From NCBI GenBank assembly GCA_903913215.1, contig CAIWKE010000019.1, positions 1 to 46,740 on the forward strand: DNA of 46,740 bases, written 5' to 3'. The position numbers and the translations under genes were made by a program. This document shows positions 424 through 20,446 of the stretch, in pieces. Position 1 is the first letter of the stretch. Each line of letters opens with the position of its first letter. This DNA is from an uncultured Holophagaceae bacterium (GTDB taxonomy: Bacteria > Acidobacteriota > Holophagae > Holophagales > Holophagaceae). The notes below the pieces were generated by a model, which did no database searches, had not been told where the DNA came from, and saw only the letters and a program-made list of their open reading frames with translations.

Positions 424-2090
424 CTAGAGGCCCGGCAGGTCGGCCAGCCGGGTCCGCAGCTCACCGAGGGTGAAGGGCTTGGAGATGCTGTGGACGCCCG
501 CCGTGGCTTCCACCAGGGCCAGCAGGGACTCGTCGTTATAGCCCGTGCAGAGGAGCACTGGCACCGTGGGACGGTAGCCCCGGAGCAGGGGCAGGACCTG
601 GGCCCCAGTCATGTCGGGCATATGCATGTCCAGGATCACCAGGCTGAAGGGGCGATCGGTCGCCAGGAACTGGAGGGCCTGGTGGCCGGTGGAGGCGGTC
701 AGGGCCCGGTGCCCCAGGGCCCCGAGCAGCAGGCTCATGGCATCCAAGATCAGGGGGTCGTCGTCCACCAGCAGGATGTCCAGACTCGATGGCTCGAGCC
801 GCTGCGTCCCAGATCCGGTGCTGGGTATCGGGGCCCAGGGAACCAGCCGCTCGGCGGGGAAGGTGAGGATGGCCTCAGTCCCCATGCCGGGGCTGCTCCG
901 AAGTTCCATCCGGCCCCCGTGGGCCTTCATGGTGCCGTTGACCATGGAAAGCCCCAGGCCCGTGCCAGTCCCGTTGGACTTGGTGGTGAAGAACGGCTCC
1001 ATGGCCCGAGCCAGCACAGTGCTATCCATGCCAGGGCCGGTGTCCACCACCCGCAGTTCCAGGTCGCCGTCGGGCCGCTGCCGCCCCAGAATGAGCAGTT
1101 CGCCGCCTTCGGCCATGGCGTCCATGCTGTTGACGCAGAGGTTCAGCAACGCGTGGCTGAGGGCCCCGGCCTCGCCCCGGACCAGGGGCAGATTCGGCTG
1201 CACCTCCACTTGGACCTGGATGCGCTTCATGGTGAAGGAATCCATGAGCCGGGCCAGGTCTTCGACCAGGAGGCGCAGGTCCACGGGCCGTTCCTCCCGG
1301 GGCCCCTTGTGGGCAAAGGCCATGAGGCTCCGCACCACGTCCCGGCCCCGGAGGCAGGCGGCCACGATGGTTTTGAGGTTGCGGGCATGGGTCGGGGGCA
1401 GATCCTGGGCCTCGCACAGGGTGGTGGCCAGGCCCAGGATGGCCCCCATGACGTTGTTCATATCGTGGGCGATGCCGCCGGCAAACACGCCGAGGCTCTC
1501 CATTTTGTGGGCCTGGAGCAGGTCAGCTTCCAGGAGGCGACGCTCTTCCTGGCTCCGCTCCAGGTCGCTGATGTCTACGATCACGGCCCGGCACTCCATC
1601 CCATCCGCCGTGGGCATGCCCTCCAGGTGGACCGGGAAGACCGAGCCGTCCTTCCGCACCAGATGCATCTTGCAGGCGCCGGCGGCCCCCCCGGAAAAGA
1701 TACCCGCCAGGAATGCCTCCAGCCCGGAGCGGTCAGGCTTGGCCACCCAGGCGCCCAGCCGCTGGCCCACCAGCAGGTAGCGTTCCTGCCCCAGCATCCG
1801 CGCCCCGGTGAGGTTGATCTGCAGGATGCCGCCATCAGGCCCCAGGCTCACGAAGCCCGAGGGGGAGAAGTCATAGAAGTCCACGTACCGCTGCCGAAGC
1901 GAGTCCTCCTCGAGGCGGGCCTCTCGCAACTCCTCGTTCTGAATCTCCAGTTCGACCTGGTGGACCTGCAACTCGTGAAGGATCCGCAGAAGCCGATCCG
2001 GCTCGGCCGCCTGGTAAGCCGGTGAGAAGCGCCCGAGGCGGGCCTCGGCCCGACGGCGGATGCCCTCCAGGCCGGGCTCGGGCTCCTCGG

Positions 2091-2094
<4 letters not shown>
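424..2094 (-). CDS. PAS-domain hybrid histidine kinase with C-terminal receiver
   Basis: 556 residues, no membrane segment, so cytoplasmic. Order: N-terminal helical region (about 1-70), PAS domain (about 72-180, with FSPSGFVSL and the closing VIVDISDLERSQEE), DHp domain with phospho-accepting His210 in AGGIAHDMNN, HATPase_c with N-box LCVNSMDAM (about 320-327), G1 DTGPGM and GTGLGLS, then a receiver with acidic cluster VDDD near 443-446, phospho-acceptor Asp489 (VILDMHMPD) and Lys in SKPF. The start ATG overlaps the stop of the upstream CheB-CheR-PAS gene by four bases (ATGA), so the two are translationally coupled and probably one signalling unit. Presumably it autophosphorylates and passes phosphate to its own receiver. 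It lacks a DNA-binding output, so its downstream partner is unknown. No CheA or chemoreceptor is nearby. Confidence 0.9.
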
Positions 2095-4901
<2,807 letters not shown>

Positions 4902-4932
4902 CTCGCGGCTCCTGGGAGGATAATTAAGACCA

Positions 4933-4938
4933 AGTATA
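4933..4938 (-). promoter_or_regulatory. Putative -10 box for the CheB-CheR-PAS operon
   Basis: TATACT on the minus strand in a locally AT-rich stretch, about 30 bases before the chosen start codon at 4901. No good -35 hexamer is visible upstream, so an activator may be needed. Confidence 0.35.
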
Positions 4939-5034
4939 ACCATGGGGGCCATCCCGGCCCCTGGCCCCGGAAGGGAAGATTGGAACAAGGTTCAGTGGCC
5001 CTGGCCTAGACTGGGGGCCTGATAGGAGCTGACC

Positions 5035-5703: not shown

Positions 5704-7584
5704 ATGATCAAGGGCTACGCCAATAGGATCCTGGAGGTCGATCTCGCCGCCCGGACCTTTTCGTTCCAGCCCCTGGATGATGAGATCGCCCGCCTCTACA
5801 TCGGCGGCAAGGGCTACGGTACGCGGCTGCTCTATGACACAACCAAGCCCGGCATCGACGCCCTGGGCCCCGAGAACCCACTGATCTTCGCCACGGGGCC
5901 CCTCAACGGCTCGCTGGCGCCCCAGTCCAACCGCTTCGCCGTGGTCTGCAAGAGCCCCCTCACGGGGGGCATCGGCAACGCCGCCTGCGGGGGCTCCTTC
6001 GCCCTGGGCCTGAAGAAGGCCGGTCTCGATGTGCTGGTCATCCGGAACCAGTCGCCCACCCCATTGCGCCTGGAGGTGGACGGAGACGCCGGCACCGTGG
6101 CCTTCGTGGACGCCACGGAACTCTGGGGCCGGGGCACCTCTGCCACGCAGGAGGCCCTGGGCAAGAGCGGCTACCACGCCGTCATCGGCCCGGCGGGAGA
6201 GAACCAGGTGCTCTACGCGGGCATCGTGTCCCAGGAGCGCATCGCCGGGCGCACGGGCGTGGGCGCGGTCATGGGCTCCAAGCGGCTCAAGGCCATCACC
6301 GTGAAGGGCACCGCCAAGCTGGAGATGGAGGACGAAGAGAAGTTCAAGGCCTACACCAAGTGGCTGCGCCAGCACTTCCGGGCCCACCCGGTGCTGGGGG
6401 AGAAGCTGCGCCGCTACGGCACCATGGGGATCGTCAACACGACCAATGGCCGGAACATCCTCCCCACCCACAACTTCCGCTTCGGGCACCACCCACACGC
6501 CATGCAGCTGTCCGGCGAATACCTGGAGGACAACGGCCTCGTCGGCGTGAAGTCCAGCTGCATCCACTGCCCCGTGGCCTGCGGCCGCGACGTGATGGTC
6601 GATGGCGCCCGGGTCAAGGGGCCTGAGTACGAGACCGTGGCCCTGCTGGGCACCAACCTGGACATCGTGGATATCAAGCAAGTGTCCGAATGGAACCAGC
6701 TCGCAGACGACCTGGGCATGGACACCATCAGCCTGGGCGTCACCCTTGGCTTCGCCATGGAGCTGCAGGAGCTGGGCATGCTTGAGACCGACCTGGCCTT
6801 CGGCAAACCCGAGGGCATCAGCGCCATGATCCGGGACATCGCCTTCCGCCGCGGCCTCGGCGACGACCTGGCCCAGGGCGTGAAGCGCCTGAGCGAAAAG
6901 TATGGTGGCTGGAGCTTCGCCATGCACGTGAAGGGCCTGGAGCTCTCGGCCTACGACCCCCGGGGTTCCTACGCCCAGGGCGTGGAGTACGCCACCACCA
7001 ACCGGGGCGGCTGCCACGTGCAGGGCGCCAGCATGTACATGGAGTCCACGGGTCCGCTGACCATCAACCCCCAGAGCCTGCGCCTCAAGGCAGAGCTGCC
7101 CGTGGTCCAGCAGAACCTGGCCTGCGCCCTCAATGCCATGGTGCTCTGCATGTTCAGCACCTACGGCATCATCCCGGCCTTTGTCCACCGCATGGATCCC
7201 AATAGCTTCCTCTACCGGATGCTCGTGGGCGCCTTCGAGCGCAGCGGACCCATGTACCGCTGGCTCCTGGGCCTCAAGGTCCGGCCCCTCCTCTGGTTCG
7301 AGCAGTGGCTCACCTACATCACGGGGCAGACCTTCACCTCAGGCCACCTGCAGGAGATCGGGGCCCGCATCTTCAACCTGGAGCGCATGTACAACCTGCG
7401 GGAGGGCCTCACGGGCCAGGACGACACCCTGCCTCCCCGGATGCTCCACGAGCCAACATTCAAGCACCTGCATTCGGGTGTGCCCCTGGACAGCCTGCTG
7501 CCCCGCTACTACCAGATCCGCGGCTGGGACGCCCAGGGTGTGCCCCTGCCCCGCACACTCAAGAAGCTGCAGGTGCGGGTGTGA
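5704..7584 (+). CDS. Tungsten-type aldehyde:ferredoxin oxidoreductase
   Basis: 626 residues, the typical length of the AOR family (tungsten or molybdenum bis-pterin enzymes oxidising aldehydes to acids with ferredoxin-like acceptors). The start resembles other members (GYANRILEVDL, IGGKGYGTRLL). The N-terminal pterin-binding region includes CKSPLTGGIGNAACGG near 82-97. The [4Fe-4S] ligands are Cys286, Cys289 and Cys293 (CIHCPVAC) with the fourth at Cys482. The second pterin motif, usually DxxGLC, here reads NAMVLC (477-482), so the Asp and Gly are replaced while the cluster Cys is kept. The first motif is DTISLG (340-345). No signal peptide, so cytoplasmic. Its stop overlaps the GTG of a MoaD-like gene by four bases. 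Substrate unknown; the altered motif suggests a subfamily away from the classical archaeal enzymes. Confidence 0.9.
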   Translation: MIKGYANRILEVDLAARTFSFQPLDDEIARLYIGGKGYGTRLLYDTTKPGIDALGPENPLIFATGPLNGSLAPQSNRFAVVCKSPLTGGIGNAACGGSFALGLKKAGLDVLVIRNQSPTPLRLEVDGDAGTVAFVDATELWGRGTSATQEALGKSGYHAVIGPAGENQVLYAGIVSQERIAGRTGVGAVMGSKRLKAITVKGTAKLEMEDEEKFKAYTKWLRQHFRAHPVLGEKLRRYGTMGIVNTTNGRNILPTHNFRFGHHPHAMQLSGEYLEDNGLVGVKSSCIHCPVACGRDVMVDGARVKGPEYETVALLGTNLDIVDIKQVSEWNQLADDLGMDTISLGVTLGFAMELQELGMLETDLAFGKPEGISAMIRDIAFRRGLGDDLAQGVKRLSEKYGGWSFAMHVKGLELSAYDPRGSYAQGVEYATTNRGGCHVQGASMYMESTGPLTINPQSLRLKAELPVVQQNLACALNAMVLCMFSTYGIIPAFVHRMDPNSFLYRMLVGAFERSGPMYRWLLGLKVRPLLWFEQWLTYITGQTFTSGHLQEIGARIFNLERMYNLREGLTGQDDTLPPRMLHEPTFKHLHSGVPLDSLLPRYYQIRGWDAQGVPLPRTLKKLQVRV

Positions 7585-7844
7585 GCATCACCGTGGAGCT
7601 CACCTACGACCTAGCCAAGCTGCTGGGCACCCGGCATCTGGAGCTGGAGGGCGCCGCCACCGTGGGGGACGCCCTGCGCCTCACCCGGGTCCATTTCGCG
7701 GAGCAGCAGGCGGACTTCGACCGGCTCACCCGGGTGACTGCCCTGGCCGTCAACGGCGTCCTCATCAACCACCGGAACCTCTGGGCCACCCCCCTCGCTC
7801 CCGGGGACCGGGTCAGCTTTCTCAAGGCCGCAGCCGGGGGCTGA
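7581..7844 (+). CDS. MoaD/ThiS-family sulfur-carrier protein
   Basis: 87 residues with a beta-grasp pattern and the diagnostic C-terminal Gly-Gly (PGDRVSFLKAAAGG), where MoaD-like proteins are adenylated and loaded with sulfur as a thiocarboxylate. The central LAVNGVLINHRN and the following PLAPGDRVSFL match the family. The GTG start overlaps the stop of the oxidoreductase gene (GTGA), so translation is coupled. MoaD-like proteins next to AOR genes are thought to serve maturation of the tungsto-pterin cofactor. No other cofactor-synthesis genes are nearby, so the large MoaE-type partner must be elsewhere. Confidence 0.85.
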   Translation: MSITVELTYDLAKLLGTRHLELEGAATVGDALRLTRVHFAEQQADFDRLTRVTALAVNGVLINHRNLWATPLAPGDRVSFLKAAAGG

Positions 7845-8001
7845 GGTGGGCTGTGAACGGCTCGAAAGCGACTGCCTGAACGTCTAAGATTATTCCGTTG
7901 GAACCCACTATTTAATTCAGGCCCCACCACCTAATATTCAACGAATTCAAGCAAATTCCCGAAGAGACGGCAATCTTTGTAGCAAAAGGCGGCAACGACT
8001 C

Positions 8002-9921
8002 ATGCTCCGATGGACTTCTGCACTCTTGATGGGGGGCTGCCTGGCGGCTCAGCAGGTTCCCGAGGCCCCATCCGAGGGCGGAGCACGGCTCCTGGAGCTT
8101 CTGAACACGCCCATCGCGGTCACCTCCCACGTGCCCCTGTCCAACCGGGAGAGCCCTGGCATCACAACGGTGCTGCAGCGGGAGGAGATCATGGCCTCCG
8201 GTGCCCGCGACCTGATGGATGTGCTCCGCTTTGTCCCCGGATTCGCCTTCGCGTCTGATACCAACGGGGTGGTCGGCATCGGGGTGAGGACCTGCTGGGG
8301 CCACGATGGGAAAGTACTCCTGCTCATTGATGGTCAGGAGATGGTCGAACCCCTCTATGGCACCCTCCAGTTCGGGGGGCACTACCCCATCGACAACGTG
8401 CAACGGATTGAGATCATCCGCGGGCCGGGCAGCGTCCTTTACGGCGGATTCGCAGAACTGGCGGTCATCAACGTCATCACCCGGAAGGGCGGAAACATCG
8501 GTGGGGTGGATGGCTCCTTCTGGTTGGGCCAGATGGCAAGTGCACAGCACAACCTTGCCAAGGGGCACGTGGCCTATGGGCAGGTCTTTGGTGACCTCGA
8601 TGTGGCGCTCTCCTACGTTCGAGGTCAGGCCCCCCAGGGCGTCGGCTCCTGGCAGAAGCCTGCCTATGCTGGCTCGACGGTCATCCAGGCGGGGGACGCC
8701 TCAGCCACCCACCAGGACTTCCTCAACCTCAAGGCCTCGTACGGCAACCTGAACCTGCACTACCTGCGCGATGACTACGCCGTCAATGACTACACCGGCG
8801 AGTTCAAGACCACCACCACGCCCATCCGTTTCCCGGGAGAGTTCTTTGGCGTGAACGACCTGTTCGAAGTGGGTGCCTGGTCCTTCAAACCGAGCCTCAC
8901 CATCAAGTCCCAGGCCCCTTGGCTCTACACGGCGGCCCGTACCGATCGCAACACCCGGACAGACGGCGGCCTGCTCGCGACCTGGGCGGCGACCAAGACG
9001 TTCAAGGTCACCCTCGGTGCCGATGTCATCCAGGACAACACCAACATGTTCTGGAGCAGCCGGAACGTGCGCGAGACCTACGTCTACGAGAGCCGGGCCA
9101 CCTACCTCCAGATGCTCTGGTCGAAGGACTTCGGGAACCTGGACCTGGGCGTGAGGTACGACTACAACAATGCTTTCGGATCTGCCCTCAGTCCCCGCCT
9201 TGCCTTCACGAAGGCCACCGAGACGTGGCATGTGAAGCTCCTCGCAGCGGGCGCCTTCCAGGCACCTTCCTACGAGGATCTCTTCGCGAACCCGTCCCTG
9301 AGACCTGAGCGTACTCGCACCTTTGAAGTGGAGTATGGCCATGCGGTAGGACCGACCAGCTACCTGACGGCCAACGCCTTCTACCTCCGGGTGCATGATC
9401 CCATCAGCTATGGCAATCCGGCCCCAGGCGTCAACGGCTACTACAATTTCAACTACACGGGAGCCCACGGTCTGGAGGTGACCCTGCGCAGTCTCTGGAC
9501 AGACCTCGTCCTCCAGGCTGCGGTGTCCCTCTCCAGGGCGGATGACCAGAATGCCGCTTTCTACGCGGTGCTGGGGCAGCCCAGCTACCACGTGGGCTTC
9601 GCCAACCTGAAGGTCTCATCCCAAGCCCAGTGGCAGTTCGCGCAGGACTGGTCCCTGAACCCGGAATGCCTCCTGCTGGGGCCCCGCTACGGCTACCGAC
9701 TCGGCGAGGTGGCCCCCTCCCGCTTCGGCAGCACGGTCCTCCTGAACCTCTTCCTCACCCGCCGCCTCTCCAGCCACGCGGAACTGGGCCTGAGTCTCCG
9801 CAACCTCGCCAACGCCACCATGGACTACATCCAGGCCTTCGGGATCCCAGGTGCGGGCGGCAATCCTCCCCTGCCCGGCCCCGGCCGGGAAATCGCCCTC
9901 CGGGCCTCCTTCACCTACTAG
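8002..9921 (+). CDS. TonB-dependent outer-membrane receptor
   Basis: 639 residues. A short signal peptide (about 1-16, cleavage near LAAQ) is followed by a plug domain (about 45-160: ITTVLQREEIMASGARDLMDVLRFVPGF, broken by variable loops, then VLLLIDGQEM and IEIIRGPGSVLYGG). A beta-barrel of roughly 450 residues ends in ALRASFTY with a terminal aromatic residue as expected for BAM insertion. It is the first gene of a three-gene unit with a YfiR-like protein and a sensor kinase. That context suggests the receptor passes a ligand or a signal to the kinase rather than acting only in nutrient uptake. The ligand cannot be told from the sequence. The 157-base region upstream is AT-richer than its surroundings and probably holds the promoter. 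Confidence 0.9.
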   Translation: MLRWTSALLMGGCLAAQQVPEAPSEGGARLLELLNTPIAVTSHVPLSNRESPGITTVLQREEIMASGARDLMDVLRFVPGFAFASDTNGVVGIGVRTCWGHDGKVLLLIDGQEMVEPLYGTLQFGGHYPIDNVQRIEIIRGPGSVLYGGFAELAVINVITRKGGNIGGVDGSFWLGQMASAQHNLAKGHVAYGQVFGDLDVALSYVRGQAPQGVGSWQKPAYAGSTVIQAGDASATHQDFLNLKASYGNLNLHYLRDDYAVNDYTGEFKTTTTPIRFPGEFFGVNDLFEVGAWSFKPSLTIKSQAPWLYTAARTDRNTRTDGGLLATWAATKTFKVTLGADVIQDNTNMFWSSRNVRETYVYESRATYLQMLWSKDFGNLDLGVRYDYNNAFGSALSPRLAFTKATETWHVKLLAAGAFQAPSYEDLFANPSLRPERTRTFEVEYGHAVGPTSYLTANAFYLRVHDPISYGNPAPGVNGYYNFNYTGAHGLEVTLRSLWTDLVLQAAVSLSRADDQNAAFYAVLGQPSYHVGFANLKVSSQAQWQFAQDWSLNPECLLLGPRYGYRLGEVAPSRFGSTVLLNLFLTRRLSSHAELGLSLRNLANATMDYIQAFGIPGAGGNPPLPGPGREIALRASFTY

Positions 9922-9936
9922 GCCGGAACCCCACGC

Positions 9937-10536
9937 ATGGAACGAGTCCCCGCATCACCTCGTCCAAGGCAGGCCCAGTCCTGGGTGGGGAGGACATGCC
10001 TGACCGTGATCCTGTTCCTGGGCCTGGCCCTGCCGACCCTGGCAGCCGGCCTTTCGAAACCGGATCCGGCCGGGCTGAGACTTGAAGCCAAGTTCACCAT
10101 CGAGCTGGCTTCCTACATGAAATTCCCAAAGGTGAAAGATCCCTCAAGCCCTTTCGTCATCGCGGTCATCGGCGAGTCCCCCTTCAGTGATGAGCTGGAA
10201 GCCTACGCCAAGGGGCAGACCATCCAGGGGCGGAGCATCCAGATCAGTTACTACCAGCGGGTACCCGAGGGCCGCCCCTGCGACCTGCTCTTCATCTGCC
10301 GCTCCGAGTGGCCACGGGTCGGCCCCATCGTCGCCTGGTGCAAGACCAAGGGCATCCTCACCGTCGCCGAGGGGGAACAGCTGGCCTACAAAGGCGTGAT
10401 GGTGAGTCTCTTCGTGGAGGGCGATCGCCTGCGGCTGGGCATCAACTTGCGGGCCCTCGAGGAGGAGGGCTTCACCCTCGGCGCCAACGTGCTCCAGCTG
10501 GCCCGAGTCCTCGTTCCCCCCAAACCGGCACGCTGA
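9937..10536 (+). CDS. YfiR-like (DUF4154) periplasmic protein
   Basis: 199 residues. A positively charged N-region and a hydrophobic stretch (about 21-37, ending TLAAG) form a signal peptide. The mature part follows the YfiR/DUF4154 pattern: EAKFTIELASYMKFP, PFVIAVIGESPF near 70-81, the GRSIQISYYQ strand, CDLLFICRSE with paired cysteines, and the C-terminal MVSLFVEGDRLRLGINLRALEEEGF typical of the family. YfiR in Pseudomonas is a periplasmic inhibitor of the CHASE8 diguanylate cyclase YfiN. Here the next gene, five bases downstream, encodes a kinase with a CHASE8-like periplasmic domain, so this protein probably gates that kinase. No strong ribosome-binding site is visible. A GTG further in (about residue 16) is a possible alternative start. 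Confidence 0.85.
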   Translation: MERVPASPRPRQAQSWVGRTCLTVILFLGLALPTLAAGLSKPDPAGLRLEAKFTIELASYMKFPKVKDPSSPFVIAVIGESPFSDELEAYAKGQTIQGRSIQISYYQRVPEGRPCDLLFICRSEWPRVGPIVAWCKTKGILTVAEGEQLAYKGVMVSLFVEGDRLRLGINLRALEEEGFTLGANVLQLARVLVPPKPAR

Positions 10537-10541
10537 GCCCC

Positions 10542-12827
10542 ATGTCCATGGAATCCCACCCCTCCATCCGGCGCCGTACCCTGGCCATCCTCCTGGGCAC
10601 GGCGAGCCTGGGAATTCTGGCCACGGGGCTGATCCTCTTCGGCTTCCAGTACCGCTCGGCCCGCCAGGTGGCCCGACAGGACCTGCAGAGCCTGGGTGTG
10701 GTGCTGGCCTATAACGCAGCCCCCATGCTCTCCTTCGACGACCCGGAAAATGCAGCGCGGCTACTGGAGGCCCTGCGCCAGCGTCCGGACATCAAGCGCG
10801 CCAGGATCCTGCGCGGCAACGGCAGCGAGCTCGCCCGCTATCCCAGCCAGGCTGCAGGTTCACCCGCCGTGGAACCGAGCTCTGAGACCGGTGGTCTCTT
10901 GCTGACCTCGGTCCCCATCCAGAACGCCGCCGGGCACGGGGTAGGCACCCTGCTCATGGAATCCGATCAGGTCGCAGTCAAGCAGCAGATCCGCTGGACT
11001 GCCACGGCCCTCTTCATCACCTTGGTCATCCTGGGCGGGGGCGTGTTCCTCCTGTCCCTGCGCCTCCAGCACTACCTCACAGACCCAGTGCTGGACCTGG
11101 CAGGCCTGGCGGAGGTCATCTCCAAGCGCAAGGACTTCAGCCTCCGCGCCCGGCCCCAGCGGACCCGGGAGTTGGACATCCTGGCGAGCGCCCTCAACGA
11201 GATGCTGGCCCGCATCCAGTCCCAGGACCGGGAACTGGAGGCGAACCTTCAGCAGCTGGCCCAGGAACTCCAGGAGCGGAAGCAGGCCGAGGCGGCCCTA
11301 CGGGCCAGCGAACAGCGCTACCGCGGCCTGGTGGAGAACACCTCCGACATGATGTTCTGGGTCTGCATGGATCGCAGGGGCGACTTTTTCGTGGAGGACC
11401 TCAACCCGGCCCAGGAGCGGATCCTCGGCATGGCGCGCAGCCAGGTGGTGGGGCGGCGCATCGTGGACATTCTCCCTCCAGACGTGGCGGCTGGCATCGT
11501 GGGTCGCTATCGGCAGTGCCTGGACTCCGGCGCCCCCCTCAGCTACGAGGAGCGGGCCGAGCTCCCCACGGGCCTGGTCATCGCCCAGACCCTGCTGGTG
11601 CCCCTGGTGGGGGAGGACGGCGAGATCCGCCAGATCATCGGCACCTCCCGCGACATCACCCAGCACCGCAGCACCGAGGAAGCGTTCCGTCAGGCTCAGA
11701 AGTTGGAGAGCCTGGGTGTCCTGGCCGGAGGCATCGCCCACGACTTCAACAACCTCCTAGCCGCCATTCTCGGCAACCTGAACCTCGCTCAGTCCCTGGT
11801 GGGCCCTGGCGGCGAGGCCCTGCCCTTCCTGGACAAGGTCGAGAAGACCGTTCTGAGGGCCTCGGATCTCACCCAGCAGATGCTGGCCTACTCCGGGCGC
11901 AGTCGCTTCGAAGTGAAGCCCCTGGACCTCAACCACACGGTTACGGAAATCGGCCACCTGTTGGCCGTCTCCATCGCCAAGACCGTGGCCCTGTCCTATC
12001 AGCTGGAGCAGGACATCCCCAGCATCGCGGCGGACGCGGCCCAGATCCAGCAAGTGGTCATGAACCTAGTCACTAATGCCTCGGATGCCATCGGCGACCG
12101 ACCGGGCTCCATCGTCATCCGCACCAGCACCGTGGGCCTGGACCACGCCAGGCTGGAGCGCGACTTCGCTACCCAGGGCATGCGGCCGGGGCAGTACGTG
12201 CTGCTGGAGGTGAGGGACACGGGCAGCGGTATCAGCGAGGAAGTCCTGGCCCGCATCTTCGATCCCTTCTTCACCACCAAGCCCAAGGGGCGTGGCCTCG
12301 GCCTCTCCGCCATGCTGGGCATCCTGCGGGGCCACAAGGGCGGCATCCGCATCCAGAGCCGGATGGGCGAGGGTTCCACCTTCCACTTGTACTTCCCCAG
12401 CAGCGAACTGCTGGTCCCGGCGGCCGCGCCGGTGCCGGTCCCAGAGGAGAGCCCACTGGCCTGTCGCGTCCTGCTGGTGGACGACGAGGAGGAGGTCCGG
12501 GAGGCCTCGGCAATGGGGCTGCAGATGCAGGGCCTGGTGGTGGTGGAGGCCCGGAATGGCCTCGAGGCCCTGAACCTCTTTCGCGATTCCCCACAGGACT
12601 TCCACTTGGTGGTGATGGATCTGACCATGCCCCACATGGATGGCCGCACGGCCTTCCGGGAGATCCGGAAGCTGGATCCTCAGGTGCCAGTCATCCTCAT
12701 CAGCGGCTTCGATGAGGGGGAGCTGCCCGAAGACTTCGATGGCCAGCGACCCAATGCCTTCATCCAGAAGCCCTACCGGCTCTCGGAACTGCGCCGCAAG
12801 GTGGTGGAAGTGATGAAGAGCAGCTAG
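10542..12827 (+). CDS. CHASE8-like/HAMP/PAS hybrid histidine kinase
   Basis: 761 residues from the ATG just after the YfiR-like gene (a second ATG lies two codons on). TM1 about 13-36. A periplasmic domain of about 115 residues has a CHASE8-like pattern (LGVVLAYNAAPMLSFDDPENAARLLEAL at 51-78 in variable form, then IKRARILRGNGSELARY). TM2 is about 153-173 and a HAMP linker runs to about 235. A PAS domain follows (about 258-378, closing IIGTSRDITQHRSTEE). DHp has phospho-accepting His400 in AGGIAHDFNN; HATPase_c has DTGSGIS and GRGLGLSAMLG. The receiver has Asp693 (VVMDLTMPH) and Lys in QKPY. An inner-membrane sensor, probably controlled by the YfiR-like neighbour. No DNA-binding or GGDEF output is fused, so its target is unknown. 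Confidence 0.88.
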   Translation: MSMESHPSIRRRTLAILLGTASLGILATGLILFGFQYRSARQVARQDLQSLGVVLAYNAAPMLSFDDPENAARLLEALRQRPDIKRARILRGNGSELARYPSQAAGSPAVEPSSETGGLLLTSVPIQNAAGHGVGTLLMESDQVAVKQQIRWTATALFITLVILGGGVFLLSLRLQHYLTDPVLDLAGLAEVISKRKDFSLRARPQRTRELDILASALNEMLARIQSQDRELEANLQQLAQELQERKQAEAALRASEQRYRGLVENTSDMMFWVCMDRRGDFFVEDLNPAQERILGMARSQVVGRRIVDILPPDVAAGIVGRYRQCLDSGAPLSYEERAELPTGLVIAQTLLVPLVGEDGEIRQIIGTSRDITQHRSTEEAFRQAQKLESLGVLAGGIAHDFNNLLAAILGNLNLAQSLVGPGGEALPFLDKVEKTVLRASDLTQQMLAYSGRSRFEVKPLDLNHTVTEIGHLLAVSIAKTVALSYQLEQDIPSIAADAAQIQQVVMNLVTNASDAIGDRPGSIVIRTSTVGLDHARLERDFATQGMRPGQYVLLEVRDTGSGISEEVLARIFDPFFTTKPKGRGLGLSAMLGILRGHKGGIRIQSRMGEGSTFHLYFPSSELLVPAAAPVPVPEESPLACRVLLVDDEEEVREASAMGLQMQGLVVVEARNGLEALNLFRDSPQDFHLVVMDLTMPHMDGRTAFREIRKLDPQVPVILISGFDEGELPEDFDGQRPNAFIQKPYRLSELRRKVVEVMKSS

Positions 12828-12836
12828 TAGCCGAAC

Positions 12837-15800
12837 TCAGAACTGGTAGCCCGCAGAGATCAGCACGCTCCTGAGCTGAGATTCCCGGTCCTCCGCTGAG
12901 CGGGGCCGACCCATGATGCGCTTCCAGTCGGCGGCGTACTCCACCTTGAGAGGAAAGCCAAACTTGAAGATGAGACCAAAACCCGGCGTGACGCGCAGGG
13001 CCGGAAAAGAGGGTGCGATCGGCTTCAGGGTGGTGGCATCTGTTGAGGTGAGGAGGGCCGAGTAGACCTGCCCCGCATCCACGAAGAGCTCGGCCCAGAC
13101 CGAGTTCATGCCGAAGAGGGGGAAGCGGTATTCCAGGTTCAACACCAGCAGGGCCTGGCCCCCCAGAGGGATGGTGCGGGTCACCGGGTTGCCGTTGGCA
13201 TCTATGACGGCGTTGCCCGTGGCATTCAGAAGTGGCACCTGGCCCAGGGGTCCCAGCATGTCAGGCTCCACGCCCCGCACCGTGGCGGAGCCGCCCCCGA
13301 AGAAGCGCTCAGATAGGGGTAGAGCCTGAGAGGAACTCGCTGTAGGTCGGGCCAGGCCCAGACGGGCGCTGGCCATGAACATGCCATCTTCCGCATGAAA
13401 ACCCACGGGCGAGTTCCATTGGTAGCGGAGGTCCAGCTTGGCGAAGCTGCTGTTTTTGGAGGTGAGGAAGGCCTGGCCAGCGAACTCCACCCGCCCCTGG
13501 AAGTAGGTGCCGTCCGTGGGATCGTAGGGGCGATCCCGCCGGTCCACCGTCACCTGGAGATAGGGGGCGGAGATGATGCTGTGCGGTGGGGTGCGGGCGA
13601 CCTTGAACAGGTCTTCGTTGGTGATCAAGGCATTGCCGTCGGAGTCTTTGTTGGCGGCCACATCCACCCGCTCCCAGCGGTAGCCCAGCTGCACGGACTG
13701 CACGGGACTGAGCTTCCATTCCAGGCTGGGGGTGATGCGGCGGCGGCGGGCGAAGAAGGCCGCCTGGGCCTCCTCGATGTAGGCCGCCTCAGCATGGAAC
13801 GTGGTACGTTCGGGCAGCCAGCTGTCCAGTGCACCCGGCATGAACCAGGGATCCGTATAGCCCACGCTGTAGTTGTCCACGGAGCGGTTGATGTTGCCCG
13901 TGGGGAAGGCCCGGCGCAGGAAGGGGATGTCGAGGGTCTGGTTCCCACCCCGGGCGCCAAAGTCCAGGGTGCGGCCCATGCCGCCCACGTTCAGGCGCTG
14001 GGCGTTGAGCCCGAGGTGATAGCCCTGGGTGTTGTCGAAGCCGAAGGACTCGGAAAAGATCCAGGGCGGCCGCTCCTGGAGCCGCAGGGCCAGGTCGCCC
14101 CGCTGCCAGGGCTGTTGTTCTTCGCCGGGCAGCTCCTTGAGGCCGAGAAGGTCCAGCCGCTGGAAGGTGCCCAGGTTGCCCAGGTGGATCTGACCCTCGT
14201 CCAGCCGGAGGGGATCCAGGGCGGTCCCGGTTGGCAGCTCCATCTCCCGCAGAACCGCCCGCGCCTGGGTCTGGTCGCTGCCCTGGACCACCAGGCGGCG
14301 GGTCAGATCCAGGGGCTGGGTCGGCACCTGGATGCGCACCATGGAGCGGGAGTCCTCATCCTCGAAGCTCAGCTTCACCTGAGGATTGGCGGAACCCGCC
14401 GAACTCAGCCGCCGGCGCAGGTCCGCCACCACCAGGGCCAGATCGTTCCGGACCAGGGGGAGGCTGGGCTTGAAGTCAAGGCGCACGGTCTCCTCCGTGC
14501 GGACCAGGGTTCCCTCCACCCCCAGGAGGTGTCGCCGATCTGACGGGTATGTGGCAGAGCCGTGGAGGGCCTTCGGCCGGTCCGAGAGGGCCAACAGGAG
14601 GCTCTGGGCCAGGCTCTCCCGGGGCAGGTCGGTGCGGGCGGGCAGGTCAAGGACGAGGCTGTCCAGGAGGTGGCGGCGCCCCTCCCGGATGCTGAGGTGG
14701 ACTTCCACGATCCCGCTGGCCAAGGTGTCCACGCGTCGCCGCACGGCCACCTCCGTGAAACCCCGTAGCAGGTAGTAGGCCGTGACCCGGTCCTCCAGGG
14801 ACTTGACGGTCTGGGCCTCAGCCAGAGGCGAGAAGACCAGCAGGCGGCGGGACAGGGTCACCACGGCCTGCAGATCCTTCTCGGACACCTCGCGATTGCC
14901 CTCGAAGGTGACCTTGCCCAGCGTGCGGCGGGGTCCCTTGACCACGGTATAGGTGAGGGTCACGGCCTGGGGGCGTTCTGAGGACCCGGCGCTGACCTCG
15001 CGCTGATAGGTCACCTTTGCTTCCGGGTAGCCCTGGTCCCGGAAGTATGAGGCGATGCGTCCCGCCCCCTCCTCCAGGAGGCTGGGCGTGTAGCGTTCGG
15101 CCCGGGCCAGGGGCACGAACTCTGCGAGCCGGGGCTGCTTCCAGATGAAGCCGAGAGGGTTCATGCCCCGGGCACGGAGCTGCACCTTGGGTCCAGCCTG
15201 CACTTCCAGCACCATGATGCCGGTTTCCGGAGCAGGCTCCAGCCGCACCGTGCCTTCCAGGTAGCCGTCCTTGACCAGGCGCTGCCGCAGCCTGCGGTGG
15301 GCCTCGCGGAGCGTGGCGGGGGTCCAGAGGGTCTTCCCGGGCTCGAGGTGGGCTTCCTTCAGGAGCCTTTCCTGGGTGTAGGGCGCGGGATCGCCCTCAA
15401 ACCGGATCTGCTGGAGCAGGGCGGGCGTGCCCAGACTCAGCACCAGTCCCAGGGGCCGCCCGGGCTCCGTCACCCGAAGCTGAAGCCGGGCTTCGGGGTA
15501 GCCAGCCTCCCGCAGGCGCTGTTCGGCCAGGCCCACCAGCTGGGCCTGGCGCTGCGGCCCTAGGCGCTGGCCCCGCCTCAGCTCCGGCAACAGGGTCTTC
15601 CGCAGGGACCCGGGGACCGCATCGCCCTCCCAACGCCAGCTCTGGATCGGCTGGAGGGAGACCAAACGTAGGTGGATCACCCCGTCGACCAGGCTGCCGG
15701 TCACGGACTGGTACCGGTCCACCAAGCGCACGGCAGCCAGAGCCTGCTGGAAGCTGCCCTCGTCCAGGGGCAGGCCGGGCTTCAGGCCCAGGGCAGCGGC

Positions 15801-16272: not shown

Positions 16273-16382
16273 GGGATGCCTCGAGATGAGCGGCCAGTGT
16301 AGCAAAAGTGCCGAGGTCCAGGGCAAAGATGCGATCGCTTCTCAGAGACTTTGGAGCTGTCCTGAAACCAGAACCCAGGAAC

Positions 16383-16398
16383 CGGCACGGGGCCTGCA
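16383..16398 (+). promoter_or_regulatory. Sigma-54 promoter candidate for the flagellar operon
   Basis: CGGCACGGGGCCTGCA fits the -24/-12 consensus (TGGCACG, four bases, TTGCA). The invariant GG at 16384-16385 and GC at 16396-16397 are separated by exactly ten bases. Only the first T and one T of the -12 element differ. Predicted start of transcription near 16409, 40 bases before flgB. Sigma-54 control of flagellar middle genes is common, and a sigma-54 activator is encoded at 34193. Confidence 0.65.
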
Positions 16399-16448
16399 TG
16401 GCTCTCCCCAGTGCCGGGACTCACCCGGTCCATTCTGCAGGGTGCTCC

Positions 16449-16868
16449 ATGTTCGACCTCACCGGTGGCAACGCGATGATCCAGTCCATGGATGTCAGCA
16501 TGTCCCTGGCTTCCAAGCGCATGAGCCTGATCGCCTCGAACCTGGCCAACCTGGACACCCCGGGCTACCGGACCCGGGACTTCAGCTTCCAGGGGGCCCT
16601 CAAGTCGGCCCTGGATGGGCAAACCTCGCCCGCCTCTCTCAACGCCACCCACCCCATGCACCTCCAGGGCACGACCAGCGCCGCCCTGCCGCCCACCACC
16701 GATGCCCTCAAGCCCAGCTCCGAGCGCAACGATGGCAACGATGTGAGCCTGGACCGGGAGAACATGCTGCTCTCCCGCACCCAGACCGACTACCAGACAG
16801 CGTCCACCCTCATGCAAGTCGAGCTTCGGAAGCTCTATTCCATGATCCGAGAAGCGAGCGCGCACTGA
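16449..16868 (+). CDS. flgB: Flagellar basal-body rod protein FlgB
   Basis: 139 residues, the normal size of this proximal rod subunit. It begins MFDLTGGNAMIQSMDVSMSL and carries the rod-protein N-terminal signature RMSLIASNLANLDTPGYRTRDFSF (about 25-48, read with its conserved NxANxxTPGY core). The C-terminal helix contains VSLDRENMLLSRTQTDYQTA, used for axial packing. It is exported by the flagellar type III apparatus and sits between the MS ring and the rest of the rod. First gene of the operon behind a sigma-54 promoter candidate. The ribosome-binding site is weak (CAGGGTG). Its stop overlaps the flgC start by one base (TGATG). Confidence 0.95.
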   Translation: MFDLTGGNAMIQSMDVSMSLASKRMSLIASNLANLDTPGYRTRDFSFQGALKSALDGQTSPASLNATHPMHLQGTTSAALPPTTDALKPSSERNDGNDVSLDRENMLLSRTQTDYQTASTLMQVELRKLYSMIREASAH

Positions 16869-17287
16869 TGTCCATCAACCAGATCCTCGATATCGCCGGC
16901 ACCGGCATGGCTGCTCAGCGGCTGCGGGTCCAACTCATCGCCGCCAACATCGCCAACAGCGAGACCACGCGCACCAAGGAAGGCGGCCCCTACCGGCGCA
17001 TGGACGCAGTCTTCCAGAGCCAGGACATGGGCTTCAAGGGCGCCCTGGCCAGTGCCGGAGTCCGGGTCGCCAGCATCCAGAAGAGCAAGGAACCCTTCCT
17101 CAGCCGCTACGAGCCCAGCCACCCGGATGCCAACTCCGATGGCGTGGTGAGCTACCCCAACGTCAATCCCGTCGAGGAGATGGTCAACCTCACGGAGGCC
17201 AGCCAGTCCTATCAGGCCAACATTGCCGTGGTCCGGGCCGCCAAGACCATGGCCACCTCCGCCCTGGACATCCTCCGCGTCCAGTAG
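16868..17287 (+). CDS. flgC: Flagellar basal-body rod protein FlgC
   Basis: 139 residues. The N-terminus has the rod signature (MAAQRLRVQLIAANIANSET near 14-33) and the C-terminus the matching YPNVNPVEEMVNLTEASQSY and ANIAVVRAAKTMATSALDIL, which form the coiled axial domain. It is secreted through the flagellar export gate and polymerises in the rod next to FlgB. One-base overlap with flgB implies translational coupling. A 75-base gap follows before fliE. Confidence 0.95.
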   Translation: MSINQILDIAGTGMAAQRLRVQLIAANIANSETTRTKEGGPYRRMDAVFQSQDMGFKGALASAGVRVASIQKSKEPFLSRYEPSHPDANSDGVVSYPNVNPVEEMVNLTEASQSYQANIAVVRAAKTMATSALDILRVQ

Positions 17288-17362
17288 GCTGTCGGAATTT
17301 CGACTTGCCCCCGGACCGCTCCCGACTGATCGTGTGACTAGCCCTTCCCCCGAGCCCACCCC

Positions 17363-17692
17363 ATGGACCCACTCCTGAACATCCCCTCGCTGACCCCCCT
17401 CAGCCCCGCCTCTGGAACCGACCGTTCCAGCCTGGGCAGTGGCGCTGCGGGCGGTGCGGGTGCCGAGGGCGGGGTCGCTTTTGGGGACCTCCTCAAGCAG
17501 GCCCTCCAGGAAGTGAACCAGGTTTCAGCCCAATCCGAGGTTGAGGCACGGAACTTGATGACTGGAGAGGGTGCAGACATGCACTCGGCCATGCTGGCTG
17601 TCCAGAAGGCCGATCTTAGCTTCCAGATGATGATGGCCGTGCGATCGAAACTGATCGACGCCTACCGCGAGGTCATGCGCATGCAGATGTAG
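17363..17692 (+). CDS. fliE: Flagellar hook-basal body complex protein FliE
   Basis: 109 residues. The family-defining C-terminal half is clear (FGDLLKQALQEVNQVSAQSE, LMTGEGADMHSAMLAVQKADLSFQ, ending SKLIDAYREVMRMQM). The N-terminal 40 residues are a low-complexity Gly/Ala-rich export region. FliE links the MS ring to the rod and is needed for rod export. It lies between flgC and fliF as in most flgBC-fliEFGHIJ operons. There is no evident ribosome-binding site at the ATG, so reinitiation or a leader structure may matter. Confidence 0.93.
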   Translation: MDPLLNIPSLTPLSPASGTDRSSLGSGAAGGAGAEGGVAFGDLLKQALQEVNQVSAQSEVEARNLMTGEGADMHSAMLAVQKADLSFQMMMAVRSKLIDAYREVMRMQM

Positions 17693-17741
17693 CGCAGGCC
17701 TGGCTTTCGGGCGCGGCCTCACCCCTGACTGAGGAACGCCT

Positions 17742-19439
17742 ATGGCCGGGGAAACGAACCTCGCTGAACAGATCACCACTGCCTTCCGCGACATGAGCGG
17801 GACCCAGCGCGTCATGGTTTTGGCTATCACCGTGACGGTGCTCCTGGCCCTCGGCGGTCTGGGCATCTGGGCTGGCCAGGAGTCCAAGGCCGTCCTGGCC
17901 GCCAACATCTCCCCCCAGGAGGCCAGCTCCATCGTGGCCCAGCTGGACAAGCAGCAGATCCCCTACGAGCTCAGCGGCGACCAGCGCAGCATCATGGTCC
18001 CCGAGAGCAAAGTGGGCCAATTACGCCTGAAGTTCGCTGGGGACGGCCTCCTCTCCGGGGACAAGCTGGGCTTCGAGAAGCTGGAGAACGCTGGCCTCGG
18101 AACCACGGATTTCTCCCAGAAGGTCATTCACCGCCGGGCCATGGAAGCCACTTTGGCCAAGACCATCATGAGCCTCCAGCAGGTGGCTGACGCCAACGTC
18201 CACATCACACCCTCCAGCGACAGCCCCTTCCTCACAGAGAAGGAAGACGCCAAGGCCAGCGTCCTGCTCAAACTCCGGGGCTCCAAGATGCTGCCGGACG
18301 AGAACACCCAGGCCATCGTGAACCTGGTGGCCGCCAGCGTGGAGGGCCTCAAGCCTGAGCAAGTGGTCATCATCGACCAGTACAGCCGCATCCTCTCCCG
18401 CACCGGCCGCGACCCCATGGTGGGGGCCAGCGATGCTCAAAAGAAGGTGGCCCGGGAGGAGGAGGACTACCTTGTCCGCCGCGTCACGGACCTGCTGGAG
18501 CCTGTGGTGGGCATCGGCAAGGTGCGGGCCACGGCCCATGTGGACCTGGATTTCGACAAGGTGAAGATGAACGAGGAGCGCTTCGATCCTGCGAGCCAGG
18601 TGGAGCGCAGTGTTCAGCAGAAGGAAGAGAAGCTCACCAAGAAGGACTCGGGCGCGGGCATCCCCGGCACCCCCAGCAACGTGGCGCCAGCCACGGGCGG
18701 CGGCACCGCGAATGTCATCGAAAACTCCGAGAAGAAGGAGACCACCACCAACTACGACATCAGCAAGGTCGTCAGCTCCACCGACAAGGCCACCGGCACC
18801 GTGAAGCGCATGACCCTGGCCGTGATCGTGGATGACCTGAGTACCTGGACCAAGGATCCCAAGGGTGAGCCCCTGCTGAAGACCACCCCCCGGCCCGCCG
18901 AGGAACTGAAGAAAATCCGGGACCAGGTCTCAGCCGCCGTGGGCATCCAGCCCAAGCGCGGGGATGAACTCACCGTGGAGAACATGGCCTTCGCCACCCT
19001 CCAGACGAACCCCAAGGAAGAGGCGGACGCCAAGAAGCAGTTCTGGGTGGATCTGGTGCGCCAGTTCGCCCCCAGCGTGATCTACGGCATCATCGGCCTG
19101 GCCCTCTTCTTCATGATCTTCCTGCCCATGCTCAAGCGCATGTCCGCCGCCATCAACCGCCCGGCTCCCATGCGGGTGGCCAGCGGAGACGGTGGCGAGG
19201 GCGGCCTGGCCATGGCCGGCGGCGGGGGCGGCGGCAGCACCCGCAAGCCCGTGCAGGTGAAGTCCATGACCGAGATCGAGGCTGAGATCGAAGCAGAACT
19301 CAACGCCGATGCCGCCTTCAGCGCCCCGGAAGCCCGCCGGCGCGAGCTCATCAAGAAGCGCCTCCAGGAAGGCTCCATGGAGGATCCAGAAACCATCGCC
19401 TCGCTGGTCCGCTCCTGGCTGCTTGAGGAGGGACGGTAG
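17742..19439 (+). CDS. fliF: Flagellar MS-ring protein FliF
   Basis: 565 residues. TM1 about 24-44 (VMVLAITVTVLLALGGLGIW), then the YscJ-like ring-building domain (NISPQEASSIVAQLDKQQIPYEL, with the characteristic VHITPSSDSPFLTEKEDAKASV in variable form, and the VVIIDQYSRILS stretch near 207). A long periplasmic beta-collar region of low complexity follows (about 290-345), then TM2 near 444-464 and a cytoplasmic tail ending in the FliG-binding segment (IASLVRSWLLEEGR). It forms the membrane platform on which the motor and export gate assemble. GAGGAA precedes the ATG. The Gly-rich stretch at about 487-502 between TM2 and the tail is probably a flexible linker. Confidence 0.96.
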   Translation: MAGETNLAEQITTAFRDMSGTQRVMVLAITVTVLLALGGLGIWAGQESKAVLAANISPQEASSIVAQLDKQQIPYELSGDQRSIMVPESKVGQLRLKFAGDGLLSGDKLGFEKLENAGLGTTDFSQKVIHRRAMEATLAKTIMSLQQVADANVHITPSSDSPFLTEKEDAKASVLLKLRGSKMLPDENTQAIVNLVAASVEGLKPEQVVIIDQYSRILSRTGRDPMVGASDAQKKVAREEEDYLVRRVTDLLEPVVGIGKVRATAHVDLDFDKVKMNEERFDPASQVERSVQQKEEKLTKKDSGAGIPGTPSNVAPATGGGTANVIENSEKKETTTNYDISKVVSSTDKATGTVKRMTLAVIVDDLSTWTKDPKGEPLLKTTPRPAEELKKIRDQVSAAVGIQPKRGDELTVENMAFATLQTNPKEEADAKKQFWVDLVRQFAPSVIYGIIGLALFFMIFLPMLKRMSAAINRPAPMRVASGDGGEGGLAMAGGGGGGSTRKPVQVKSMTEIEAEIEAELNADAAFSAPEARRRELIKKRLQEGSMEDPETIASLVRSWLLEEGR

Positions 19440-19441
19440 CC

Positions 19442-20446
19442 ATGTCGAAACTGACCGGAATGCAGAAGGCCGCCGTGCTCATGGTCACCCTGGGTGACGA
19501 GACCGCATCGAACATCTTCAAGTACCTGGAAGAGGACGAAATCCAGTCCATCTCCCGGGAGATCGCCATCACCAAGCATGTGCAGCCCGAGTTGGCCGAG
19601 GAAGTCATGGAGGAGTTCCACACCATGACCCAGGCCCGGAGCTACATCAGCCAGGGCGGCATCGAGTACGCCAAGAAGCTGCTCATCAAGTCTGTGGGCC
19701 CCGAGGTGGCGCGGAAAATCATCGACCGCCTGGTCAAGGCCCTGGAATCCAGCGCCGGCTTCACCAGCCTGGAGCGGGCGAACCCCCAGCAGCTCTCCAA
19801 GTTCATCCAGAACGAGCACCCCCAGACCATCGCCCTCATCCTGGCCCACCTCAACGCCTCCCAGGCGGCGGAACTCATCTCCAGCCTCCCGGAAGTACTC
19901 CGCAGCGACGTGGCCATGCGCATGGCCAGCCTCCAGGAGATCAGCCCCGAGGTGGTGCGCCGCATCAGCCTCATCCTTGAACAGAAGCTGGAGGCCCTGG
20001 GCTCCTTCGCCACCGAAGCCTATGGCGGTGTCCGCGCCGTGGCTGAGTTGTTCAACCGCATGGAGCGCAATGTGGGCCGCACGGTGCTCGAGAAGATCGA
20101 GACCGAGAACCCCCAACTGGCGGCCAGCATCCGGGACCTCATGTTCGTTTTCGACGACATCCTGCTCATCGACGACAACGGCATCACTGAGATCCTCAAA
20201 CGGGCCGACAAGAAGACCCTCACCATCGCCCTCAAGGGCACCAGTGAGGAACTCCAGAATCAGTTCTTCCGCAACATGTCCAGCCGCGCCGTGGAGCTCA
20301 TGAAGGAAGAGATGGAGTTCATGGGCCCCGTGAAGCTGAAGGATGTGGAGAAGTCCCAACACGAGATCGTGGAGATCGTGCGTCAGCTCGAAGAGGAAGG
20401 CGTCATCAGCATCGGCGGAGGCGGAGGCGAGGACTATGTCTCATAA
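19442..20446 (+). CDS. fliG: Flagellar motor switch protein FliG
   Basis: 334 residues, full length. N-domain begins LTGMQKAAVLMVTLGDETAS; the middle domain has the EHPQ motif (NEHPQTIALILAHL, near 124-137); the C-domain has the charged torque helix with VFDDILLIDDNGITEILKRADK (about 237-258), which meets MotA. It couples stator movement to the MS ring and takes part in direction switching with FliM and FliN (not in this window). It starts two bases after the fliF stop. Its own 3' end overlaps fliH by 11 bases. A poly-Gly stretch just before the end (IGGGGGEDYVS) is unusual but harmless in appearance. Confidence 0.97.
   Translation: MSKLTGMQKAAVLMVTLGDETASNIFKYLEEDEIQSISREIAITKHVQPELAEEVMEEFHTMTQARSYISQGGIEYAKKLLIKSVGPEVARKIIDRLVKALESSAGFTSLERANPQQLSKFIQNEHPQTIALILAHLNASQAAELISSLPEVLRSDVAMRMASLQEISPEVVRRISLILEQKLEALGSFATEAYGGVRAVAELFNRMERNVGRTVLEKIETENPQLAASIRDLMFVFDDILLIDDNGITEILKRADKKTLTIALKGTSEELQNQFFRNMSSRAVELMKEEMEFMGPVKLKDVEKSQHEIVEIVRQLEEEGVISIGGGGGEDYVS

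Follow-up and report, generated by a model that had tools for sequence, protein, structure and literature searches.

The window analysed here, a stretch of 46,740 bases (67% G+C) on contig CAIWKE010000019.1 of an uncultured Holophagaceae bacterium (source genome 3.9 Mb, 41 contigs), encodes at positions 8002-12827 of the forward strand a tightly packed trio comprising a TonB-dependent receptor (TBDR), a DUF4154/YfiR-like exported protein and a CHASE8 hybrid histidine kinase, in that order. The trio is real and widespread, with the copy in the window representing a divergent member which falls outside the curated cut-offs, and it probably functions as a relay between the outer and inner membranes. 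With somewhat better than even confidence, we propose that an outside signal arriving at the outer membrane is passed via YfiR to a phosphorelay, with the receptor replacing YfiB of the YfiBNR system. Three elements are new here, namely a receptor segment that goes together with YfiR, what looks like an exchange of outputs behind a receptor-YfiR input module, and a possible connection to alkane sensing.

The three genes encode a BtuB/CirA-type TBDR of 639 amino acids (8002..9921, +; Plug domain PF07715, 7.8e-15, at 8143..8451), the YfiR-like protein of 199 amino acids (9937..10536, +) and a kinase of 761 amino acids (10542..12827, +). They are separated by gaps of only 15 and 5 bases, respectively, which suggests that they share one transcript and form an operon-like unit. 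A scan of positions 7500-13000 identified no promoter or terminator between the trio genes, and the single promoter-like (0.6 expected) and two terminator-like sites (2.6 expected) do not exceed the frequency in shuffled sequence. For the kinase, the ATG at 10542 is the most likely start, as a longer frame with a GTG start at 10308 runs into the YfiR gene. The adjacency of these protein types had been proposed in a sequence-only reading of the window and is borne out by Pfam. The YfiR-like protein matches PF13689 (4.5e-31; 108 bits against a cut-off of 24.9) and is the sole DUF4154 match of the source genome at E <= 0.001, while the periplasmic part of the kinase matches the CHASE8 sensor domain PF17152 (10662..10919; 1.8e-12; 47.8 bits against a cut-off of 27). 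In a genome-wide CHASE8 search the kinase (10662-10952; 3.3e-13) is the best of three matches, the other two being under the cut-off. The output architecture of the kinase likewise agrees with that reading, with a HAMP domain (11070..11219; 23.7 bits, just under the cut-off of 25), a PAS_4 domain (11382..11669), a HisKA and HATPase_c kinase core (11721..12401; HisKA 26.7 bits, just under the cut-off of 26.9) and a receiver domain (12468..12803; Response_reg 1.5e-20), and the catalytic residues H400, N512, DTGSG at 559 and receiver D693 are in place. Two other kinases of the source genome, at G000:C36:169351-169656 (L131) and G000:C35:45889-46197 (L132), have weak CHASE8-like parts (24 bits) and kinase core matches, even though no further DUF4154 match was found in this genome.

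DUF4154 was found in 82/396 genomes of the same phylum (taken to be Acidobacteriota), and the 99 matches of at least 72 bits were fetched with their flanks (21 weaker matches, <72 bits, were left out). The order TBDR, YfiR, CHASE8 protein on one strand occurs in 49 of these 99 loci. The receptor stands immediately upstream in 55 loci, is divergent in seven, directly follows YfiR in nine and follows the kinase in six, such that 77/99 loci have a TBDR in the cluster, and a CHASE8 protein lies beside YfiR in 83/99. A second set, consisting of the best 80 of at least 555 relatives from named genomes found with an eight-row YfiR alignment and therefore no random sample, showed the full order in 52 loci across thirteen phyla (19/52 Acidobacteriota; phyla taken from the organism in the record title), with the receptor immediately upstream in 57 and divergent in eight. 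Fifty-one of the 52 were recognised with in-house profiles, and the remaining one (L225) has a CHASE8 kinase found by Pfam. The order of the triple is thus kept beyond the source genome, with the TBDR in the upstream place as the sequence-only reading had it. For example, a plasmid of Sphingobium indicum B90A encodes a TBDR, YfiR and a CHASE8 hybrid kinase. A different order is found on a plasmid of Pelobacter propionicus (response regulator, histidine kinase, YfiR, CHASE8 histidine kinase, TBDR), where the start of the receptor reads like that of the subgroup to which the receptor in the window belongs.

Such a trio is covered by three NCBIfam models, NF053590 (TOL_0244 receptor), NF053591 (TOL_0243 YfiR-like) and NF053592 (histidine kinase near YfiR-like). 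The receptor, YfiR-like and kinase genes occur together in the window and in its relatives, as in the NCBIfam trio, but the window proteins are under all three cut-offs (55.6 against 645, 90.1 against 125 and 123.9 against 194 bits, respectively). Among the relatives scored with the first two models, 2/3 receptors and 5/5 YfiR-like proteins pass (for example L181, with 734 against 645 and 154 against 125 bits). The receptor in the window matches TIGR01779 (1.4e-23) and NF053590 (3.5e-15) and is BtuB/CirA-like, yet under every NCBIfam cut-off; its Pfam Plug is matched, its barrel match is under the cut-off, and no STN domain was detected, with just Plug and a weak barrel match appearing up to E = 1. 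A cobalamin riboswitch upstream of this BtuB-like receptor was considered and rejected, as none of the Rfam families scored up to its gathering threshold in any part of the window.

A stretch of the type DLTxLSLEDLMNxEVTSVSK is common to receptors encoded 5' of YfiR and immediately precedes their plug, and the NF053590 profile begins at this segment (profile position 1 corresponds to residue 14 of the receptor of the relative L200). The counterpart in the window, residues 30-43 of the receptor (LLELLNTPIAVTSH; 8089..8130, +), which covers the segment and the presumed Ton box, was located by alignment A3 and a profile match. In the predicted model of the L200 receptor, the barrel resembles BtuB with a Z score of 40 (root mean square deviation 2.1 over 531-533 residues). 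The alignment with BtuB (1nqe and others) starts with model residue 27 or 28 facing BtuB residues 6-7, and that with BtuB of the BtuB-TonB complex 2gsk starts with model residue 16 facing BtuB residue 5. Residues 27-33 of the L200 model are EVTSVSK. These are presumed to be the Ton box because the model aligns there with the start of BtuB, where the Ton box of BtuB lies. The SLEDLMN part would then be presumed, from the model, to be a short helix just before the Ton box.

The association of this segment with YfiR was evaluated with the A3 profile, which comprises the segment and the start of the plug (39 rows from YfiR-linked receptors) and was searched in the 396 same-phylum genomes. At most fifteen candidates were scored per genome and the counts are of the matches listed; a match from model position 7 or earlier was taken to include the segment, and one with a DUF4154 match at most 5 kb away was taken to be linked. 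Among the matches listed, 61/68 segment-bearing receptors of at least 75 bits have YfiR within 5 kb, as do 32/39 when the 29 places used for training the profile are excluded, and two of the seven unlinked matches at this score sit at a contig start. None of 28 plug-only matches (27 of which score 50-75 bits) lies near YfiR. Per genome (n = 396), the matches listed show YfiR and the segment in 66, YfiR only in sixteen, the segment only in three and neither in 311, all being lower bounds, and 'neither' may hide some, because no more than fifteen candidates were scored in each.

The co-divergence of the parts was compared in the 87/179 loci in which all three are long enough. Distances between YfiR proteins and between CHASE8 regions correlate with r = 0.78 (full shuffles did not exceed 0.20). 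Four genomes have two triples each, and of the sixteen pairings possible there, the true one of YfiR and kinase ranks first. YfiR and the kinase therefore appear to be fixed partners.

Most CHASE8 partners are kinases, and the sequence-only reading had described the kinase as standing instead of a diguanylate cyclase. This holds for the window but fails as a rule, as the same TBDR-YfiR pair also stands beside CHASE8-HAMP-GAF-GGDEF (L050) and CHASE8-HAMP-GGDEF-EAL proteins (L054, L063 and L180), and plasmids of Paraburkholderia sp. D15 and Pseudoalteromonas sp. Bsw20308 encode TBDR, YfiR and CHASE8-GGDEF-EAL. All GGDEF-type outputs stand after a receptor and YfiR. In a quick CHASE8-HAMP tree of 151 regions, in which 58/146 inner branches have support under 80, the four GGDEF-type rows among 138 labelled ones need at least three changes while receptor and YfiR are retained; L054 and L063 fall in a four-row set with a support of 100, and the rows closest to them, L057 and L058, carry kinases. 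Receptor and YfiR thus resemble a modular input whose output can be exchanged. At a further locus (L203:7478-9790), the gene after receptor and YfiR encodes a MASE1-PAS kinase that gave no CHASE8 match, possibly a different YfiR partner.

The profile A1 of the YfiR-like family retrieves from the PDB, up to E 0.01, solely chains of P. aeruginosa-type YfiR (best 5.6e-13); the window protein alone reaches E 0.32 at best. According to the relevant parts of PMC3375315, the P. aeruginosa YfiR positions V160, F162 and L183 are tied to YfiN binding. Their aligned counterparts L165, L167 and L188 remain hydrophobic, in line with the proposed reuse of the YfiR interface, and among 99 family members position 167 is occupied by F in 79 cases and by L in twelve. 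Furthermore, the YfiR pocket that F57 of YfiB occupies (L166/I169/V176/P178/L181, as given in part of PMC4887326) corresponds to L171, L174, L181, A183 and L186 in the window protein. In some same-genus genomes, exported proteins of about 140 amino acids are encoded directly after receptors (L244:9241-9672, +; L245:9553-9978, +; L299:2611-3039, -). Only the C-terminal end is YfiR-like in the first two (E 0.001-0.004), and the third scores 0.41 and reads alike. From their sequences these may be very divergent YfiR-like partners; the fetched stretches of all three loci gave no CHASE8 match.

In the mechanism we propose, the YfiR-like protein would act as a periplasmic go-between that binds CHASE8 and holds the kinase in check (or sets its activity), in the manner of YfiR acting on YfiN. 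The receptor would take the place of YfiB by presenting the short helix just before the Ton box to YfiR, and ligand binding or engagement of TonB would alter the availability of this helix, shifting YfiR between receptor and CHASE8. Kinase activity would change as a result, and with it the flow of phosphate into the receiver domain and from there to an Hpt protein or response regulator encoded elsewhere. Weak support for docking of the segment on YfiR comes from AlphaFold2 (AF2) models of L200. When receptor and YfiR are modelled in one chain rather than the receptor alone, the predicted local distance difference test score (pLDDT) rises from 45 to 75 for receptor residues 11-20 and from 56 to 69 for residues 21-30, is unchanged at 34-35 for residues 1-10 and drops from 77 to 71 for residues 31-40, and the predicted template modelling score is 0.83 for the joint chain against 0.91 for the receptor alone. 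A VIA-align search with this read-through model returned receptor chains only and is uninformative on its YfiR part.

A number of observations weigh against this relay, beginning with the modelling itself, in which the pLDDT change is a comparison between models of different input alignments and has no accompanying contact map. In 22/99 loci there is no TBDR in the cluster within the distance limits (a few of these lie near contig ends), and in 20/22 of them the one upstream frame chosen from each, on either strand, encodes neither a receptor nor an OmpA-like protein, with DUF72 found three times and tetrahydrofolate dehydrogenase twice. The segment in the window is a degenerate form of the SLEDLMN-x-EVTSVSK signature, and its A3 match (8080-8265) scores 71.5 bits. 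Among the matches listed, linkage to YfiR becomes looser at lower scores, with 20/54 segment-bearing matches linked at 50-75 bits (13/23 at 65-75, 6/20 at 58-65 and 1/11 at 50-58 bits), and all these segment-YfiR statistics ignore shared ancestry. Not all members of the receptor subgroup of the window ('LLNTPI..ASK..RESPG..GARDL') have a YfiR match in the stretch fetched, and one genome (G115; for example L280 and L287-L290) has at least fifteen segment-bearing receptors against four DUF4154 matches, a surplus which may reflect a single YfiR serving several receptors or another role of the segment. The TBDR-YfiR distance correlation is only 0.50 (TBDR-kinase 0.55), and in within-genome swaps the true TBDR-YfiR pairing was reached or passed in 31% of permutations and the TBDR-kinase pairing in 12%; the case for a receptor-YfiR link draws mainly on gene order and the shared segment. 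In the YfiR-like protein the disulfide C145-C152 of YfiR is lost (A150, S157) and C71 is replaced by A76, with C110 kept as C115. Finally, no response regulator or Hpt is encoded within the trio, and seven Hpt matches lie elsewhere in the genome.

Some of these points would also be expected if YfiR and the kinase were the real two-part sensor, with YfiR sensing a small periplasmic ligand or redox state, with the receptor merely importing a compound that YfiR binds and no contact between the two being needed. According to parts of PMC4655355 and PMC4887326, YfiR is folded like a single lobe of a periplasmic binding protein and binds VB6 or L-Trp in crystals, and both the 22 receptor-less loci and the weaker co-divergence of TBDR and YfiR than of YfiR and CHASE8 fit such a supplier of substrate. 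Import alone, however, leaves the shared segment before the Ton box unexplained, as well as the lack of linkage among the plug-only matches (0/28), and we consider this explanation unlikely, though deserving of attention.

Kinases are often encoded next to their target genes, and the order could thus reflect co-regulation, with the receptor downstream of the kinase in the pathway and YfiR-kinase controlling expression of the neighbouring uptake gene. The divergent receptors (7/99) and those downstream of YfiR or the kinase (15/99) would suit such an arrangement. Against it, the trio encodes no DNA-binding regulator, the TBDR-YfiR pair is also found beside GGDEF and GGDEF-EAL proteins, outputs with no DNA-binding activity, and the association of the segment with YfiR would not be expected; co-regulation is accordingly regarded as quite improbable. 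Accidental or selfish clustering with no functional coupling, which the order in one genome alone could have suggested, is already contradicted by the order in 52 of the best 80 named loci across thirteen phyla, by there being just thirteen Plug matches (twelve above the cut-off) in the whole source genome and by the failure of the window's further neighbours to recur in any of 124 other loci, and has next to no likelihood.

The latter search (tblastn, 1e-10, with the window as positive control) covered flanks of about 7 kb in a set of 124 loci distinct from the 80 of the named genomes. The further neighbours sought were the aldehyde ferredoxin oxidoreductase, the MoaD-like protein, DUF4337 and Omp85/POTRA (0/124 each), and the first two, which lie upstream, were accordingly rejected as trio members. 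They are located at 5704-7841, where an aldehyde ferredoxin oxidoreductase (search match) is followed by a small MoaD/ThiS-like protein (named by reading its sequence). Also upstream, on the reverse strand (424-4988), are a PAS hybrid kinase and a CheB-CheR-PAS-like fusion, and downstream (16308-20446, +) are flagellar-looking genes (flgB, flgC, fliE, fliF and fliG), all named by reading translations.

As in YfiBNR, a YfiR-family protein stands beside a CHASE8/PAS-HAMP inner-membrane protein in the window. The two systems differ in that the window has a TBDR where YfiBNR has the OmpA/Pal-like lipoprotein YfiB, and in the output, which is GGDEF in P. aeruginosa and HisKA-HATPase_c-REC in the window. 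None of the six window proteins scanned is OmpA-like, the rest of the genome not having been searched for YfiB. The sequence-only reading had supposed that the trio was not described as a characterised pathway, which is not supported in that form, given the NCBIfam models for all three proteins and the sensor-kinase outputs reported by Malone et al. 2012 (PMC3375315). These authors found the YfiR-YfiN core to be modular, with almost all distant Yfi operons lacking YfiB and the GGDEF domain often replaced by GGDEF-EAL, HPT or a sensor histidine kinase (including a hybrid sensor kinase in Thauera), and the legend of their Figure S5 names an Acidobacterium. The word TonB does not occur in the main text of that paper, and searches of open-licence PubMed Central yielded no paper that places YfiR and a TonB receptor in the same pathway. 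Four papers there contain both words, but their titles and the openings of their abstracts suggest other topics. The kinase swap is thus not new, and the receptor partner is recognised by annotators and not analysed in the literature searched.

In FecA/FpvA-type transducers, an outer-membrane receptor communicates with an inner-membrane protein by way of a periplasmic domain. The trio resembles these in the proposed pairing of an outer-membrane receptor with an inner-membrane signalling partner, but the receptor in the window has no STN domain, and its partners are a YfiR-like protein and a kinase rather than an anti-sigma and a sigma factor. No FecR-like anti-sigma or ECF sigma factor was found among the six window proteins scanned, the other window genes not having been classified by search.

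TOL_0244 of Thalassolituus oleivorans, which names the NCBIfam receptor family of such trios, increases sevenfold on n-C28 relative to Tween 80 and shares 40.3% similarity with OmpS (B5T_01485) of Alcanivorax dieselolei, which is itself reported to be indispensable for detecting and utilising alkanes (passages of PMC6304351; OmpS is also treated in parts of PMC9788540, PMC7284936 and PMC5174103). The receptor in the window is only distantly related, and the alkane findings concern OmpS and TOL_0244; a link of the trio to alkane sensing is possible. How a receptor like OmpS reports its ligand to the cytoplasm is not explained in the passages cited here.

Tentatively, and with less than even confidence, the trio may represent a third mode of trans-envelope signalling by TBDRs, in which a helix before the Ton box hands a YfiR-type go-between to or from CHASE8. 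Across many phyla, a single input would then drive kinases, diguanylate cyclases or GGDEF-EAL proteins, the kinase would be directly informed of transport when TonB engages the adjacent Ton box, and in hydrocarbon degraders the trio would be the missing relay between OmpS/TOL_0244 and the cytoplasm. It provides a concrete, deletable gene set in cultured organisms, together with a segment of 15-20 residues to mutate, and would supply an outer-membrane partner for YfiR in those lineages in which Malone et al. 2012 found YfiB to be almost always absent.

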